Positions 34,051-60,904 of a DNA stretch of 64,000 bases are shown piece after piece; the stretch's first letter is position 1; every line of letters begins with the position of its first letter. The stretch is from NCBI GenBank assembly GCA_034096865.1, contig JAWQFJ010001799.1:90001-154000 (forward strand), given 5' to 3'. The translations under genes were made by a program, and so were the position numbers. A model generated the notes under the pieces. The model searched no databases. It was given only the letters and a program-made list of their open reading frames with translations, and had not been told where the DNA came from. The DNA comes from Theodoxus fluviatilis (Eukaryota > Mollusca > Gastropoda > Cycloneritida > Neritidae).

Positions 34051-34504
34051 GAGTGCTAATCATAAAACTAGTATTTTCAACAATACAGTACGTGTTATTT
34101 GACACTCGTTGCCAATTAAAGCTTGTTAAATACACATTTTAATTGTCAATACAGCTACTGCGCTATAGTTAATCAAAAATGTAAATCAGGGAGCAGTTTG
34201 AAGACTTAATAACATATTAAGTTCTTTGCGTGCCCTGCTGACGGACTTCGTCCAAAAGAGACTTGTAGCCTATAGTAGCTCGTATACCTCTTGAGCAAAG
34301 TACGCGTGTCTATCCCAAATGCAAATATCGAATGCTTCAGGAAAAGCACAGACTGATCTTGTGGACTTACTGTGCCATTTGCATTCTACTGCCATTGACA
34401 TAAAACCTTGTTAAAAAGTACCCGTCCATCATGCTTGGAGAAAACGGAGGAACTATCAGCATGGCTGGGTCATTTTGTCATATCTGTAATGTGCAGGGTT
34501 CGAT

Positions 34505-36893
34505 GGTATGTGGTTTTGTCCCGATTCAGACAACACTTGGTGGTATGTGGTTTTGTCCCGATTCAGCACAACGCTCGGTGGTATGTGGTTTTGTCACGAT
34601 TCAGGGCAGTGCTTAGTGGTATGAGGTTTTGTCCTGATTCAGGGCAGCGCTCGGCGGTATGAGGTTTTGTCACGATTCAGGGCAGTCCTCGGTGGTATGT
34701 GGTTTTGTCCCAATTCAGCACAACGCTCGGTGGTATGTGGTTTTGTCACGATTCAGGGCAGCCCTCACCGGTACAGTATGAGGTTTTGTCCCGATTCAGC
34801 ACAACGCTCAGTGGTATGTGGTTTTGTCCCGATTCAGCACAACGCTCGGTGGTATGAGGTTTTGTCCCGATTCAGCACAACGCTCAGTGGTATGTGGTTT
34901 TGTCCCGATTCAGCACAACGCTCGGTGGTATGTGGTTTTGTCCCGATTCAGCACAACGCTCGGTGGTATGAGGTTTTGTCCCGATTCAGCACAACGCTCA
35001 GTGGTATGTGGTTTTGTCCCGATTCAGCACAACGCTCGGTGGTATGTGGTTTTGTCCCGATTCAGCACAACACTTGGTGGTATGTGGTTTTGTCCCGATT
35101 CAGCACAACACTTGGTGGTATGTGGTTTTGTCCCGATTCAGCACAACGCTCGGTGGTATGTGGTTTTGTCCCGATTCAGCACAACGCTCGGTGGTATGTG
35201 GTTTTGTCCCGATTCAGGGTAGCGCTTGGCGATACAGTATGAGGTTTTGTCCCAATTCAGGACAGTGCTCGGTGGTATGAGGTTTTGTCACGATTCATGG
35301 CAGTGCTCAGTGGTATGAGGTTAATTTGTTCCAATTCAGGACAGTGCTCGGTGGTATGAGGTTTTGTCACGATTCAGGGCAGTGCTCAGTGGTATGAGGT
35401 TTTGTCCCAATTCAGGGCAGTGCTCGGTGGTATGTGGTTTTGTCCCAATTCAGGGCAGTGCTCGGTGGTATGAGGTTTTGTCCCAATTCAGGGCAGTGCT
35501 CGGTGGTATGAGGTTTTGTCCCAATTCAGGGCAGTGCTCGGTGGTATGAGGTTTTGTCACGATTCAGGGCAGTGCTCAGTGGTATGAGGTTTTGTCCCAA
35601 TTCAGGGCAGTGCTCGGTGGTATGAGGTTTTGTCCCAATTCAGGGCAGTGCTCGGTGGTATGAGGTTTTGTCCCAATTCAGGGCAGTGCTCGATGGTATG
35701 AGGTTTTGTCACGATTCAGGGCAATGCTCGGTGGTATGAGGTTTTGTCACGATTCAGGGCAATGCTCGGTGGTGTGAGGTTTTGTCACGATTCAGGGCAG
35801 TACGTGCTCGGTGGTATGTGGTTTTGTCACGATTCAGGGCAGTACGTGCTCGGTGGTATGAGGTTTTGTCACGATTCAGGGCAGTGCTCAGTGGTATGAG
35901 GTTTTGTCCCAATTCAGGGCAGTGCTCGGTGGTATGTGGTTTTGTCCCAACTCAGGGCAGTGCTCGGTGGTATGAGGTTTTGTCCCAATTCAGGGCAGTG
36001 CTCGGTGGTATGAGGTTTTGTCACGATTCAGGGCAGTGCTCGATGGTATGAGGTTTTGTCACGATTCAGGGCAATGCTCGGTGGTGTGAGGTTTTGTCAC
36101 GATTCAGGGCAGTGCTCAGTGGTATGAGGTTTTGTCCCAATTCAGGGCAGTGCTCGGTGGTATGAGGTTTTGTCCCAATTCAGGGCAGTGCTCGGTGGTA
36201 TGAGGTTTTGTCCCAATTCAGGGCAGTGCTCGATGGTATGAGGTTTTGTCACGATTCAGGGCAATGCTCGGTGGTGTGAGGTTTTGTCACGATTCAGGGC
36301 AGTGCTCGGTGGTATGAGGTTTTGTCCCAATTCAGGGCAGTGCTCGGTGGTATGAGGTTTTGTCCCAATTCAGGGCATTGCTCGATGGTATGAGGTTTTG
36401 TCACGATTCAGGGCAATGCTCGGTGGTATGAGGTTTTGTCACGATTCAGGGCAGTACGTGCTCGGTGGTATGAGGTTTTGTCACAATTCAGGGCAGTGCT
36501 CGGTGGTGTGAGGTTTTGTCACGATTCAGGGCAGTACGTGCTCGGTGGTGTGAGGTTTTGTCACAATTCAGGGCAGTGCTCGGTGGTATGTGGTTTTGTC
36601 ACGATTCAGGGCAGTGCTCGGTGGTATGTGGTTTTGTCACGATTCAGGGCAGTGCTCAGTGGTATGAGGTTTTGTCCCAATTCAGGGCAGTGCTCAGTGG
36701 TATGAGGTTTTGTCACGATTCAGGGCAGTGCTCGGTGGTATGTGGTTTTGTCACGATTCAGGGCAGTGCTCAGTGGTATGAGGTTTTGTCCCAATTCAGG
36801 GCAGTGCTCGGTGGTATGAGGTTTTGTCACGATTCAGGGCAGTGCTCGGTGGTATGTGGTTTTGTCACGATTCAGGGCAATGCGCAGGAGGCC
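34505..36893 (+). repeat. 38-bp minisatellite, about 62 units
   Basis: Unit GGTATG(T/A)GGTTTTGTC(C/A)C(G/A)ATTCAG plus 12 more bases. Units before about 35220 carry GCACAACGCTCGGT; later ones carry GGGCAGTGCTCGGT. Four units contain an extra TACG (GCAGTACGTGC). Stretches recur at an exact 540-bp offset (35581-35700 identical to 36121-36240), a higher-order repeat of 14 units. The unit lacks stops in the plus frames, so long spurious frames appear. Confidence 0.97.
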
Positions 36894-40844: not shown

Positions 40845-46599
<5,755 letters not shown>

Positions 46600-47393
46600 G
46601 GCTGAATTTGAATATGAAACTGAAAGTCAATGCGATTCGGTTTCGGCCGTATTCACGTGGTTATGATAGCATGATGGTTATCAAGTGGGCACCGGCAGCG
46701 ATCAAGTCTGTGCATGCATCGATATTTAAAGTCTCAATGGGCAGGCGCTTTCATTAATATATAATTACTGTGCTTGGGCGAGAAGTGACACTCAAACCGG
46801 TGAACTACTTAATAAGTCACAAAATTCATAGAATTCATTCGTTCAAGTGAATCAGCTAAAATCAGTCCGTGGTAACGATCGTGAACATTCAGCGTTACAG
46901 GACGATAAAGATTTAACGATGCTAGCACGATTTAACAATGCTAGCACGGTCGTTCCTTACACCTCAAGCCACAACACTGCAACGAAGCAAGCAAAACTGC
47001 CCCGGTAACAAATGACTATATATATATAATTTGCAGGTGTGGTGTCGTCATCTGCAGCGAGACGCTCCGCAGGTGGGAGCTCGGTGGAGCTAAAACAAAT
47101 CTTATGGTCAAAGCATTTACGTAAAATGTAATTTTTACTGCTATTTAGTAAAGATTTAACGTGCAAAATAACCCTTTAAAGCCTCAAATTAAAATCCTGA
47201 CATATTATCTTTTCTTTCTTATCTGTTTTCGGATTTTTTTGCTTCTCAAAATTTACGCGTTGAACGCATTAGTTTAACTTTTGCAATCACCACGATCGAC
47301 CTTCGCGATGTAAACAGCAGTTGCAGACGGCGTGCGTGCGAAGCAAGTACTGTTGTCTCTTCCATTTGTTGACGCAGCAGCACAACCGGCACA
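46600..47393. promoter_or_regulatory. Candidate bidirectional promoter between H6PD and ISOC2
   Basis: The start codons of the two divergent genes are 794 bp apart. No TATA box is obvious close to either ATG, and 5' UTR ends are not visible. The interval includes a 19-bp direct duplication (about 46916-46953, GATTTAAC..TGCTAGCAC twice) and a short ATATAT run near 47020. Shared promoter function is inferred from spacing only. Confidence 0.4.
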
Positions 47394-50300
47394 ATGACAG
47401 TGTCAAAGCTCGGCAAAGTTGTGCTGAAAAACTCAGCTCTTTTTCTGTGTGATATGCAGGAGAAATTCCGACCAACAATCCAGTTCTACCCTCAAATTTT
47501 GGCCGTGTCCGCACGAATGCTCGCTGCTGCTAAAATCTTGGAAATGCCAGTGATCGTAACGGAACAGTATCCAAGAGGTAAAAAGTAGCCATAGAATAAG
47601 TACTGTTGTCTCTTCCATTTGTTGACGCAGCAGCACAACCGGCACAATGACAGTGTCAAAGCTCGGCAAAGTTGTGCTGAAAAACTCAGCTCTTTTTCTG
47701 TGTGATGTATGCAGGAGAAATTCCGACCAACAATCCAGTTCTACCCTCAAATTTTGGCCGTGTCCGCACGAATGCTCGCTGCTGCTAAAATCTTGGAAAT
47801 GCCAGTGATCGTAACGGAACAGTATCCAAGAGGTAAAAAGTAGCCATAGAATGTCTTCTTTACACCGGAAATTTTACTTTAAATATCGGAATCAACTTTG
47901 TCGACTATCAACTCTATAGCACTGGTGACCTTGCAATTTGGAAGGATGGGGTTAAACCAGGCCAAGGCCTTATCATGTCACTGTGACTTTCGTGTCAAGG
48001 CCTTGTTCATGTCCTATTCACTTCTCTCCCCTCCAAGATAGAATTCTTCGCATTAATCTAGTTGAATATGGAACTCTACGTTGTCTTTACCCCTACATTT
48101 AAGATGCCATAAAATAGTTCAGTGGTCTTTGCAGCAATCTGTCACTAGCCTATAGTATTAGTGATAATGCAAGTTCAGACGTTGCAATTACGGTATATTT
48201 GATTTTGCTTGTGCACATTTTGTCCTTTTCAGCCTTCTGACGCCCCCTTAAAACATCCCCTTCCTCCCCATCAGGCATGCACATCCATCTACTTGTCTTC
48301 CGTATTCGAAGCAGGATATGGGATGTTAACTAAAAACGAAGATTAAAATTACTATATTGGTATCTTGTGATGGAGTCAAAATTGACAGGAAAAAAGGCCA
48401 ACTTTAATGTAAACATAAAATAAAACTTTTATAAAACCAACACTTTTTTAACTTTAAAAACATCAAATTTGAATCAGTGAAGTGTATTATGAGATTTCAT
48501 TATTTTGACTCAGTTCAGCATCTACATGGGATCATACCAAAGGGCATAAAGTTTAAATTTACATGGAAAGGGATTCATTTGCATTCTTTGGGGAAGAAGT
48601 TTGCTCATTGCCATTGGATGTGTTGAATGTTTAAAGAGACCAAGAATTAGATCCCACCCAATATATTCTGTATACATTTACAGCACATGGGAGACAGATT
48701 CGTTGTTTCATGGAAGTTGTATGAGGAGTGTGTCACTCTGTGGTTTGATCATCTCATCACTAGGGTTTTTTGGTCTCTGTGTCTCATTTTCAAATGTTTA
48801 CTAGCATTACATCAACATTTATGTGCATGTTTATTCATCCCTTCCTCCTTTCCATCTATCCATCCATCCATTTATTTGTTCTCTACAGGTCTAGGACCTA
48901 CCTGCTCAGAGTTAGATGTGAAAGGATTCAAGGTATTTCCCAAGACCCAGTTTTCCATGTGCATTTCTGAGGTGAAGGAGGAAATGAAGAAAATGAAAGG
49001 TAAGCCAGGCAAAGCCATGGTCTCCAAGTTTCAAGGACTGAAGGAGTGAATCTGAGATGTGTGTAACGGATCGGGCCTGATGCGCTGGTGGGAACAGTCC
49101 TGAGGTAAATGAATTTGAGAGTCTGAGGAGGAGAGTGATACTACTGCGGAGATGGAGGAGGAGGAAGATGAAGAGGAGGAAGAAGACCGATGAAATTCTG
49201 GTCCTCGAATTGTTAGTAGCTTCATCCTCTTCATCTTCCTCTTCCTCCATCTCCAATCCGCAACTCCCTGGTTTATGCAGACACCATCCAACGGAACACA
49301 GATCACCCCAATCCGCTCGGGCACAAAATCCTTGCAGAACCGTTCCTTTTCCTTCAACGTCACAATCCCGTGACGACATACGTATCCAAGTAAGGGGAGG
49401 GAATTAGATTTAGAAATCGAGAACAGGCCCAAAACGTCGGCTGCTACAGACAATAGAAAAGGGAAATAATAATTATGTAATAATAACGGGAAAACCATTT
49501 GTGGGGGTCACAGTATGATAACTTGGAACTCATTCCTTTGAACTGTACGTTAAACCCCTTCTCTGCAGGTGTAATTTGCAATAGCCCGTGCTGAAGAACA
49601 TTTTTAATGAAAATGTCTGAAGATCAAATCCACTGTGTTCAATCGCTGTCAAGGGAGGTAATTCTGCAAGCCACAGAGTAAATTTTTCAGCAGTGCTGGA
49701 CTATAACATTGAGATTTCATTGAATGTTATATGTTCATTAATGCATATACATGTAACATCAGTAAGAGTGTAAATAGGCCTGACTGTGTATATCCATATT
49801 GCAGTGAAGGGCTTAAATAAATGAAAGGAAATGTATACCATTTTAAAATCCTCTGCTTATATTCTAATGAAAAGAGTTCCTTTCGCTCAACAAATATTTT
49901 GAATTTGCCAACACACATTTACACATACACACAAGCACATGCACAAGCACACACGCACATGCACACACACGCACACACACACACACACATACACACACAC
50001 GCACACACACGCACATGCACACACACACACACACATACACACACGCACACACACCCACACACACACACACATGCATGCACGCATGCACATGCAGATGGAT
50101 ACACATGCTCTCATCATTTACACATGTGGAAAATGTGATGGATGAGTTTACTCTGGATTCGAAGCCAGTTATATTATGTGGCATTGAGCCTCTCTGTAAA
50201 ATGCAGGTTTCTCAGATTTGAAGTCTATTATTTATTTGTCTTTGAAACCCATTGTAGAGTGTGTAGATTTGAAACCAATCATTTTGTAAAACTTTGCGGC

Positions 50301-50998
50301 CCACTGTGGGTATGTGAATGCATTGTAGATCTGAAGTTCGGAAGCTTTTGTCACGACGTATTTTTGGCACTGTAGTTAGTGTTCCAGATCGGAAGTTGCA
50401 TATCCTTCAAAGCCCACTGTAGGATATTAGTGTTCCAGATCTGAAGTTGGTCATCTTGTGTGGAACTGAGGACCACTGTAAAAATGCAAGTTTGTCAGTT
50501 TTGAAGACATTCATCTTTTCAGTATTGTAGCTCGCTGTAGTCGTCTCATGTTCCAGATCTGAAGTCAGTCATCTTGTGTGGCATTGAAGCCCACTGTAAA
50601 AATGCAAGTTTGTCAGTTTTGAAGTCATTCATCTTTTCAGTATTGTAGCTCGCTGTAATCTTCCAAAGTCAGTCATCTTGTGAGGCATTGAAGCTGACTG
50701 TGAGATGCAAGTTTTTCAGTTTTGGAGTCCTTTATTTTTATTGGCATTGCAGCTCATTGAGGGCTATTTGTGTTCCAGATCTGAAGTCGGTTGTCTTGTG
50801 TGGCATTGAAGCCCATGCATGTGTGCAGGCCACAACACTGGACTTGATAGAGGAGAACTACGATGTCCATGTGGTTGTTGATGCAGTGTCAGCTCGCAGC
50901 ATGACAGACAGGTGGGGAAGCTTGTTTTTTGTTGTCACTAATGGAGGAGGAGGAGGAGGAGGAGGAGGAGGAGGAGGAGGAGGAGGAGGAGGAGGAGG

Positions 50999-51033
<35 letters not shown>

Positions 51034-51681
51034 GAGGAGGAGGAGGAGGAGCAGCAGCAGCAGCAAATGAAATTTTGTGGTTAAACCAATAATTCTTATG
51101 CAAGAAATGAATGTTCGGAGATGATGTATTGAGAAGATGAGCCTTCTTTGATGATGAAATATTAGGGGAAATCTGATGAATTGAATGTCAGTCAGCCTAT
51201 AGGGAATGTCATGGTTGCTTCCAGTGTCAGTTTACAGTCACTAACTCTTGGACAGCTTGCCTAACTATATCATTGTTGCCTGTCATTATCAATATTTAAC
51301 ATGACCACTCTATGATTCAATGAGGTAGGATCAGTAACAGCAGGTCTGACTAATTGTATTCTTTCATTAGAGAAAGCGTGACCCTGAAAAGAGTTGTTTA
51401 AGTGCATCGCGTCTGAGCTTGGCATTGACTGGGCGTTAGCTCTGTGTATGGTTATGGGAGCAATGCACTAATATGCTGTTGCCGTTTCCTCTTGCAGGAT
51501 GTTTGCTCTGCAGCGGATGCGAGAGGCAGGTGCTTACCTTACTACCAGCGAGAGCATGCTTCTAGCACTGGTGCGCGATGCCTCCCACCCAAAGTTCCGA
51601 GAGATCCAGAAAATCATCTGGGACTCAGCCCCCGACACTGGTCTGCTGGTAGGGAAGGTGGATGGAGAGACTCCAGTGTGA
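47394..51681 (+). CDS. ISOC2: Isochorismatase domain-containing protein 2-like hydrolase, complete, four exons
   Basis: Small cysteine hydrolase of the isochorismatase/nicotinamidase fold; the physiological substrate of animal ISOC proteins is unsettled. Exons 47394-47577, 48889-48999, 50779-50911 and 51498-51681, all GT-AG and phase-consistent, total 612 bases (203 residues; human ISOC2 is about 205). Family catalytic positions are visible: Asp20 in [10 protein letters not shown], Lys80 in [10 protein letters not shown], and the nucleophile Cys113 in [17 protein letters not shown]. The remainder ([52 protein letters not shown]) is collinear with ISOC2. There is no targeting signal. Oddities: exon 1 is tandemly duplicated with a frameshifted second copy, intron 2 holds an array of exon-3 acceptor copies, and intron 3 begins with an in-frame GGA repeat. 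The cis-peptide region [10 protein letters not shown] is intact. Likely functional. Confidence 0.95.
47598..47852 (+). pseudogene. Tandem duplicate of ISOC2 exon 1 with 2-bp insertion
   Basis: Bases 47345-47597 (253 bp: 5' flank, ATG, coding exon, donor and a little intron) are repeated directly at 47598-47852 (255 bp). The only length difference is an extra GT in the codons for CDMQ, which shifts the frame and destroys the catalytic Asp-Met-Gln context. The GT donor at the exon end is preserved. Joining copy 1 to the 48889 exon gives the intact protein, so copy 2 is probably skipped or non-coding. An assembly artefact from two haplotypes is possible. Confidence 0.85.
49925..50095 (+). repeat. 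(AC)n/(GCAC)n tract in ISOC2 intron 2
   Basis: AC repeats with GCAC and GCAT variants, ending about 60 bp before the acceptor-unit array. Confidence 0.95.
50155..50828 (+). repeat. ~59-bp tandem array of ISOC2 exon-3 acceptor units
   Basis: About twelve degenerate units with starts near 50155, 50214, 50269, 50329, 50388, 50439, 50499, 50557, 50617, 50661, 50720 and 50779. Consensus is a TTCCAG-like acceptor followed by ATCTGAAGTC.GTCATCTTGTGTGGCATTGAAGCCCA. The last unit is the genuine start of exon 3. Several upstream units still read [13 protein letters not shown] or close to it in the exon frame; others have stops or lost the AG. Units end in TGCAG or TGCAAG-type sequence that resembles the acceptor of the next unit. 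Confidence 0.85.
50942..51065 (+). repeat. (GGA)n/(GCA)n trinucleotide tract in ISOC2 intron 3
   Basis: Long GGA run interrupted by a G-run and ending in four or five GCA units, starting about 30 bp past the exon 3 donor. Read in the exon 3 frame it encodes polyglycine then polyalanine before a stop at about 51090. Confidence 0.9.
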
Positions 51682-58318: not shown

Positions 58319-60904
58319 TGAAAGGCATGCTAAAGTCACACAAAGAAAATCAACTATACAAAATGATATTCATCTGATTTTCTTTCTAAGGCTGACTTTC
58401 ATTGCACAAACATGCTGTAAAAATAAAACTGTTCTTCAGCAAGACAACATTGACTACAGCCAACTTGTAGACATATTTTTGGACCAAGAGTAGTTCAGAG
58501 CTGCAATACAAGCCAGTTTCATTCAGATGCTACAGGAATGTTTCTCTTAAAGAGTAATATAGAATCACTAGGTGAGTGCCTTACTGAGCAACAGAAAGCT
58601 GAGATAACAAAACACTGTGAAACAGTATGAGCTGCATGATGACATGCACCATCTTTCCCCTACAGTCAAAGGCTCTGAATTCTTAGCAAGAGACCCAGAT
58701 GGATATAATTGCCACATAACTTGCAGAAAATATCAGACTGAGTCCATTTAGAGAATCCTCTACTTATATCCCAAAGATTTATATAAAAGGGTTTCATTTG
58801 TTGGCTCTGGTCTTGGATTCCCATGCATGAGAAGATTCCACATTTGAGACCATGCATGAAAAAACTAGACTGCAGAGTAAAAATAACAAAGATAAAAATT
58901 TCCAACCACAAATTTTTCACCTTTTCAACAAAATTGTTGAAAAAACATGTTCATAGCACTGACCACTGACTTTTCATTTTGGGGTATAGTAAAGCTATGG
59001 AAAAAATAGGTTACTCAGCCCCCTGATGAGTGTTGGCTGTTAGCTCATTGACTTAAGCCTGCACTGCCATGCACAATCTCCTTTCCAAGCCACTCACGAG
59101 CTGTTGCTGCCGTACGAGCGGGAGTTGAGGAGGGAGGACTTCTCGCCAGGACTGGTGTCGGCTGTGGCCAGCGTCGTCTTCTGCTCTCCCCACAGGGAGC
59201 TCAGCCCGGTCCATCCCTTGTTCCCCACCGCCGAGATCTGTGGTAGCAAGATTATCATTCATTGAAATACGGGGAAGGATGAACACAGCATGCTGTGACG
59301 TCACTAGTTTCCTGGCTGTTCCTGTCTCTGCATGTAAAAGAGAGCATCTCTGTCCTCCCTCCTCTGCACTGACAATGTCGAACATGCACATGGTAATTTC
59401 AACATTACAAAAACACAGTGAATGGAACCATTGTGCTGTCACTATTTCTTGCCCCCTATTAGGGATGAACTGGAAAATGTGTTAGGCAATGAAAAAAGAA
59501 GTAAAATAAGAATTAAAAAAAAAGGGGGGGGGGGGGGGGGGGTAAGCCTGACTTCTTTAGTTTTGTTGTTGTGAGGCCAGACCAAAACTGTGCACATCTG
59601 TGTGTGTATGTGTTGTAAGAAATGTCATTTATCTGGTGGATTAATTTTTTAAAATAAGTCTCTTTTGCCAAAAACGCTTTTTTAACTTAATATAGGGTCA
59701 ATCAGGTCACCTTTTGTGGGTGTGTCCTCGTCCACTATCTCTGTCTGGAATGTCATCTCTGCCATAAATGTAGCTCCACTTTTGTTTGAAGCAGGAATTT
59801 CACCAGAATATAGTCCTTTTGATTTATGTAAAATCTTAGAGGGCTAACCTGTGTACAATCCTGCTGAAGATACATAACAAGAAAACAAGTCAGATTTTAA
59901 CTGCTGTTAGTTCATGGTTGCACCTTTAATGGAGAAACAACACAAAAATTCTGTATACAGAGTGGTCTTTCTGGTAAATGGGGGTGAGACTTTATGCAAG
60001 AGAATCAGTTACAACTTCGTGAAGGAGATTCCATCTCATGGCAGTTCGACACTCAAAGATTTTACTGATACTGGCTCTAGCCTTTCAACATAGCTTTCTA
60101 TTACACAGACTCCTTCTCTGTGACAAGACAAGCCAGTGTCCAGACAGCCATGACACTCCAAGGAGCTCGGCCTCTAACTCTGAAAGGGCAGTCCAGACAG
60201 CCATGACACTCCAAGGAGCTCGGCCTCTAACTCTGAAAGGGCAGTCCAGACAGCCATGACACTCCAAGGAGCTCGGCCTCTAACTCTGAAAGGGCATTGC
60301 AAGACACTCCAGCTTCTCTTGTGCTGCCTACAATGTGTCACGGCGCCACTGTCAGTTACCACACAACTGTTGTACTGGCAAGAGACACTTCCATACAGGC
60401 ACAGTTGAGCAGAGGTCAGCATACCCAGGATACTATCAGGAAAATGGTGGATCAAGTGCACCAGTTCTTGGCTCTTTGTTACACAAAAACTGAACTCAAG
60501 GCAGCAGCTCCACATTTTGTTCCAATTTTTCTATTTTGTTACACTCCTATTTCCTCATGAAAACGACTCAATACCAACTTCAACATATTTTTTTTCTCCA
60601 AATATTTAGACACATAACTATTGCACACTCCCATCTTGCTGATTTTCTATTTGTCATCCTCCTTTTTATTCATGTCTCATCCCCTTTGATAAAGTTCTCC
60701 CACCCTACAAAATACATATGCATATCCAAATACTCTTCCCAGTGATAAGAACATGGCATTAAAAATCTGACAATTTATTGAAAATATTCACAGTACAGTC
60801 TGCAGAAATCTAAATGCAAATAATAACATGTGTGGGTAGCTGTTTTCTTTGTTGAGTGTAAAGCAGAATTTTTTCTTAAAATAAACATAAGATTTTACAT
60901 AGAT

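Follow-up and report, generated by a model that had tools for sequence, protein, structure and literature searches.

A probable mirage-type minisatellite at the intron 2/exon 3 edge of an ISOC2-like gene in Theodoxus fluviatilis

Intron 2 of an ISOC2-like gene, located in the 64,000-nucleotide stretch of Theodoxus fluviatilis DNA analyzed here (the window), ends in a row of copies of its own acceptor and of the first nucleotides of the following exon. This arrangement raises the question of how the copies arose and whether any of them takes part in splicing. As argued below, the array is very likely an exon-edge minisatellite of the kind termed mirages in lancelets, with copies that are decaying while exon 2 is spliced to the genuine acceptor at 50779.

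The exons, the intron, and the repeat units are listed in Table 1. Joining of the four exons, all of which have GT/AG edges, gives an intact open frame of 203 codons and a stop. The 203-residue product matches the Pfam Isochorismatase domain (PF00857) with an E-value of 2.6e-32, and Cys113 is invariant in the 36 aligned rows, i.e., the gene product and 35 homologues. By domain content and conserved cysteine, the product is classified as an ISOC2-like isochorismatase. Among the matches listed (the best 120 of 1315), the best E-value belongs to a two-domain nematode protein of 50% identity; the named matches after it are mostly from molluscs, including Aplysia (69%), Lottia (68%), and Haliotis (67–70%), and the highest identity is 73%. 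At the exon 2/3 join, all 35 aligned homologues lack an insertion, and the homologue P0001 shows a 3-residue gap. Since no insertion is present at this join and Cys113 is invariant, 50779 is regarded as the genuine acceptor. The exon 3 start given in the initial annotation was thus confirmed, both by the 203-residue open frame and by the lack of an insertion in all 35 comparisons. The gene's own three donors score 6.1–11.1; these and all other splice scores given below were calculated with an approximate consensus matrix.

Two further repeats occur in the gene. A 253-bp tandem copy at 47345–47852 holds exon 1 together with its 5′ flank and donor, and the sole difference between the two copies is one 2-bp insertion, which shifts the frame of the second. 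This duplication could be a very recent event or an assembly error. In addition, a long GGA repeat (50943–51051) starts 31 nt past the end of exon 3.

Table 1. Exons, intron 2, and repeat units of the ISOC2-like gene (positions within the window).
Feature	Position	Strand	Remarks
Exon 1, ISOC2-like coding	47394..47577	+	First of two near-identical tandem copies
Exon 2, ISOC2-like	48889..48999	+	Ends in phase 1, followed by GTAAGCC
Intron 2	49000..50778	+	Array at its 3′ end
Exon 3	50779..50911	+	Contains LCGIEAHAC with Cys113
Exon 4	51498..51681	+	Includes the stop codon
U12	50149..50207	+	A type; acceptor lost (GG); 13-residue reading, stop-free
U11	50208..50259	+	AG retained
U10	50260..50320	+	AG retained; copied frame with stop
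U9	50321..50379	+	AG retained; highly diverged, weak match
U8	50380..50430	+	AG retained; shortened
U7	50431..50490	+	A type; AG retained; 13-residue reading, stop-free
U6	50491..50548	+	B type; AG retained; extra internal TTTTCAG acceptor-like site before 50523
U5	50549..50608	+	A type; AG retained; 13-residue reading; nearest copy to the exon
U4	50609..50652	+	B type; AG retained; 98% identical to U6 (ungapped columns)
U3	50653..50711	+	A type; acceptor AG lost; copied frame with stop
U2	50712..50770	+	B type; AG retained; weak match
U1	50771..50829	+	Genuine acceptor (50771–50778) and start of exon 3; source of the array

The array consists of 12 head-to-tail units between 50149 and approximately 50829, the last of which coincides with the genuine boundary between intron 2 and exon 3. 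The units are 44–61 bp long, with nine of the 12 measuring 58–61 bp. Within 50140–50830, 597 windows matching in at least 12 of 16 bases were counted over offsets of 20–399, whereas 200 dinucleotide-preserving shuffles averaged 21.5 and never exceeded 61; the periodicity expected from a dot-plot is therefore present. A profile built from four units gave 12 consecutive matches in 50000–51199, with E-values of 2.7e-23 to 0.037, which upholds the earlier count of about twelve units made from the acceptor and the start of exon 3. When the whole window was searched with the same profile at E < 1, 11 matches were obtained, nine in the array and two weak ones on the reverse strand elsewhere; beyond the latter two, no array unit was found elsewhere in the 64 kb. 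U9, U6, and U2 are the weakest units, fall short of E < 1 in the window-wide search, and are supported by position and register.

The initial annotation had proposed a period of ~59 bp. Tandem Repeats Finder (TRF) detected periods of 59, 104, and 118 in the array, so that a 59-bp period does exist, but the dimer is dominant: the strongest offset is 118, with 128 windows, against 29 at offset 59 and 16 at the best single offset in any shuffle. Moreover, identity in 50411–50646 is 86% at offset 118 and 39% at offset 59. The array is thus best described as largely a 118-bp A/B dimer and not a uniform 59-mer, in which A-type units (U12, U7, U5, U3, and the exon unit) partly alternate with B-type units (U6, U4, and U2). 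The limits of the array also had to be moved, from 50155–50911 to those given above, as 50830–50911 is ordinary exon. Each unit carries ~8 nt of acceptor and ~38 nt of exon of secure homology; a copied exon stretch is indeed present, although not the ~50 nt first estimated. Homology in the last 13 nt is doubtful since the exon base differs from all nine scorable copies at both 50817 and 50818. The end of the unit, TGCAGG or TGCAAG, is nevertheless in register in U12, U7, U5, and U3, a hint that the unit reached ~50829.

Except for the U6/U4 pair, pairwise identity between units is 43–90%. U7 and U5 are 90% identical over ungapped columns, while the exon unit is at most 80% identical to any copy. 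Its nearest relative, U5, shows 80% identity over the unit and four differences in the 38 exon-homologous nucleotides, and one upstream copy still encodes a 13-residue LCGIEAH-like segment. This spread of identities bears on the possibility that the array is an artefact of assembly, as the near-perfect tandem copy of exon 1 in the same gene might suggest. Misassembled reads from a single locus would not yield units as diverged as these, and such an origin is very unlikely.

The direction of copying is indicated by the protein. The copied part of the exon codes for the LCGIE-x-x-x-C region, in which Gly107, Glu109, and Cys113 are invariant in the 36 aligned rows, and Leu105, Cys106, and Ile108 are conserved in at least 90% of them. 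Since this motif is shared with homologues, the exon is taken to be ancestral and the copies derived, in agreement with the earlier suggestion that the pattern grew from the exon edge. The first exon nucleotides, being common to exon and array, could in principle have been recruited from a pre-existing intronic satellite. Yet, the motif they encode is common to 35 aligned homologues, among them annelid, priapulid, nematode, and lancelet proteins, and this reverse direction is scarcely credible.

The copies were then considered as potential acceptors. The initial annotation held that each unit copies the acceptor; an AG is indeed found at the acceptor position of nine of the 11 upstream units, but U12 has GG instead and U3 has none. 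Of the 52 AGs in the array, the genuine acceptor has the highest score, 8.46. Four upstream unit acceptors score 4.4–7.3, with U5 (7.29) and U7 (6.38) the highest, and two internal TTTTCAG sites reach 8.02, nearly equal to the genuine one. Some use of the high-scoring internal or upstream acceptors may thus occur. AGs scoring above 4 are found at 17.1 per kb in the array, the genuine site included, and at 8.3 per kb in the window. High-scoring acceptor-like sites also exist outside the array, however: one at 49569, in plain intron 2, scores 12.3; this site is possibly an unrecognized exon edge or a product of chance. The two columns of the acceptor AG are kept in 10 and 11 of the 12 units, compared with a mean of 0.73 in the other columns; of those 50, 18 equal or surpass the weaker AG column in conservation. 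A yUnAy motif lies 22 nt upstream of the genuine acceptor with no AG between, and the internal site at 50753 also has an AG-free motif. At the ten upstream unit positions checked, none has such a motif 15–50 nt upstream without an intervening AG. This evidence carries little weight because a clean motif accompanies 13% of AGs by chance, both in the array (7/52) and in the window (563/4185), and 27% of window AGs scoring above 4 (141/529).

The predicted consequences of using the copies were examined by joining exon 2 to each of the 52 AGs in 50140–50830. A full-length frame results at only three of them, 50728, 50779, and 50812, none of which is an upstream unit acceptor. Use of 50728, which scores 2.75, would add 17 residues unlike the motif, and use of 50812 would remove 11 residues. 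When the nine AG-bearing upstream units are read directly into exon 3, a stop is met first in every case. The initial annotation had offered two outcomes of upstream acceptor use, and the introduction of stops is the one that holds. The other, the insertion of LCGIEAH-like segments, fails because a single acceptor switch at any of the nine units meets a stop and cannot produce it. Use of an upstream acceptor would give truncated and probably decay-prone messages, and the open frame and the homologues are consistent with use of 50779.

To insert 13 codons, a copy would have to be cut a second time, at donors of the ACT/GTAAAA type, whose scores stay below 3. With the acceptors tried, 11 stop-free in-frame acceptor/donor combinations were found, three of which use the 39 nt that precede GTAAAA in U12, U7, and U5. 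The array contains ten GTs scoring above 3, the best with 6.29 at 50310, and none of the ten takes part in a stop-free in-frame combination. These results bear on the idea that some units are spliced in as 39-nt micro-exons, so that a second such segment would come to lie next to the catalytic cysteine. U12, U7, and U5 do keep a stop-free 39-nt frame that would lead to a full-length protein. Nonetheless, U12 lacks an AG, the donors of all 11 combinations are absent among the array GTs scoring above 3, the copies are without visible coding constraint (see below), and none of the 35 aligned homologues carries such an insertion. In addition, the motif pattern does not occur twice in any of the 120 homologues listed (the best 120 of 1315), although its strict form is unmatched in 15 of the 120, including P0001 with its two domain copies. 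Taken together, a role as micro-exons is highly improbable.

A different role could be imagined for the truncated messages themselves: the copies would compete with 50779, the stop-containing products would be removed by nonsense-mediated decay, and the array would tune ISOC2 output, perhaps through copy number. The retention of AG in nine of 11 copies and the scores of the four unit acceptors and the two internal sites relative to the genuine one are in line with such dosage control, as is the position of the stop, which in each of the nine units precedes exon 3 and hence the last exon junction. Against it, no upstream unit position shows the clean yUnAy motif of the genuine site and 50753, a weak test as noted, and the site at 49569 outscores them all in plain intron. 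Furthermore, lancelet mirages have been reported without disturbance of splicing, while the authors note that units could be cryptic sites (PMC3087553, PMC3902484). Overall, decoy acceptors with a dosage role are unlikely.

Constraint on the copies was assessed from copy-specific changes, counted wherever a unit departs from a base that 70% or more of the other units share. Over the 11 upstream copies together, 16, 24, and 19 such changes fall on codon positions 1, 2, and 3, compared with two changes in the exon unit; in these counts, changes common to the sister units U6 and U4 are counted twice, and U8 and U9 align poorly. As no third-position excess is seen among the copy-specific changes of the 11 copies, no coding constraint is apparent, and the pattern is that which would be expected of unconstrained copies of a constrained exon. 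When all differences from the exon are counted in the six units translated, U3 and U10 of which carry stops, 32 of 68 fall on third positions. This mild excess over one third can come from the exon's own changes, counted once per unit. A coding function of the copies was considered and rejected, as none of the nine AG-bearing units gives a full-length protein and no third-position bias is present. One position stands out: at 50793, the exon has G where every one of the 11 copies has A, so that the six copies translated in register read Ile in place of Val. A substitution in the exon that postdates the origin of the array would be the simplest explanation.

The history of the exon-edge minisatellite may be outlined as follows. 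A short segment reaching from ~8 nt before the end of intron 2 to a point at least ~38 nt into exon 3 would have been tandemly duplicated, and later duplications, in part as 118-bp A/B dimers, would have built the intronic array. The homology of the units and the dimer period are observed, and we infer the order of events and the mechanism, which may have been slippage or unequal exchange. After duplication, the copies presumably decayed without visible coding constraint. Exon 2 is very probably spliced to the exon-proximal acceptor 50779, and the upstream copies would contribute at most noise in the form of stop-containing transcripts. On the basis of their sequences, the copies look like decaying by-products and not working parts.

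The initial annotation knew of no described gene with this arrangement. However, lancelets are known to have mirages, in which an intron/exon edge, in some cases the 3′ one, is duplicated in tandem (PMC3087553, PMC3902484). In BflGb6, the duplicated stretch joins the 3′ end of an intron to the beginning of the exon that follows, the same layout as in the ISOC2-like gene; AG/GT persists in many of the units, though not in every one, and judging from RT-PCR, regular splicing seemed undisturbed, although units could serve as cryptic sites (PMC3087553). Mirage clusters are described as including the genuine edge and as having units of 10–160 bp (PMC3087553, PMC3902484). Length instability between haplotypes and concerted evolution among the units, from which the edge unit is excluded, are further mirage traits; bearing on the latter, the highest identities in the ISOC2 array are those of U6/U4 (98%) and U7/U5 (90%), with at most 80% between the exon unit and any copy. 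Further lancelet cases are described in PGBD5, Adh, and TnC (PMC3902484), the PGBD5 units being imperfect and 60 and 108 bp long (PMC3087553, PMC3902484). The ISOC2 array shares this anatomy of 3′ intron plus 5′ exon: its units span the boundary, the genuine edge lies within it as U1, most but not all upstream units retain AG, and both the unit lengths and the 118-bp dimer lie within the range given. It differs in gene and phylum, in the greater divergence of its units (43–90% identity compared with 81–100% in BflGb6), and in its A/B dimer.

Human parallels are found on the donor side. In factor VII intron 7, 37-bp repeats located after the exon repeat the donor site, and normally the most upstream one alone is used (PMC6627357). 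The 31-bp VNTR of CBS, c.1444_1467+7(16_21), by its notation covers the end of an exon plus the adjoining 7 intron nucleotides, with a polymorphic number of 16–21 units (PMC2630376). Both differ from the acceptor-side array of ISOC2. In Drosophila, partial tandem duplication of an exon can give rise to a new intron, for which duplicated coding sequence containing a proto-splice site is the material (PMC2891723), whereas the ISOC2-like gene keeps an existing intron and no new one is seen. The arrangement therefore belongs to a known kind, the mirage type. Among the papers listed in a literature search, there was no exon-edge mirage from a mollusc; the queries that gave no paper at all combined almost every term, which makes this a weak negative.

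The ISOC2 array would thus extend mirage-type exon-edge repeats from lancelets, with donor-side cases in humans, to a mollusc, and it would strengthen the view that minisatellites repeatedly arise from splice edges. Given a constrained exon and unconstrained copies, the array may preserve a record of older exon sequence, such as the A at 50793. It also provides a natural test of how the spliceosome chooses one acceptor among a dozen copies. A bolder reading is that the copies form an active, copy-number-variable bank of decoys, by which some ISOC2 pre-mRNA would end up as stop-containing transcripts, and that exon-edge arrays recur in the lineage, exon 1 of the gene being tandemly copied as well. 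This is decidedly unlikely, but if true, the length of an exon-derived satellite would be a heritable regulator of enzyme dose.

Other features of the window were recorded as well. Minus-strand open reading frames at 40848–46626 match the G6PD_N, G6PD_C, and 6-phosphogluconolactonase domains, an H6PD-like layout. A 38-bp minisatellite of ~62 copies with 90% matches occupies 34493–36883, and a 53-bp unit containing GTCCAG, not assigned to a gene, is present in three perfect copies at 60138–60296.
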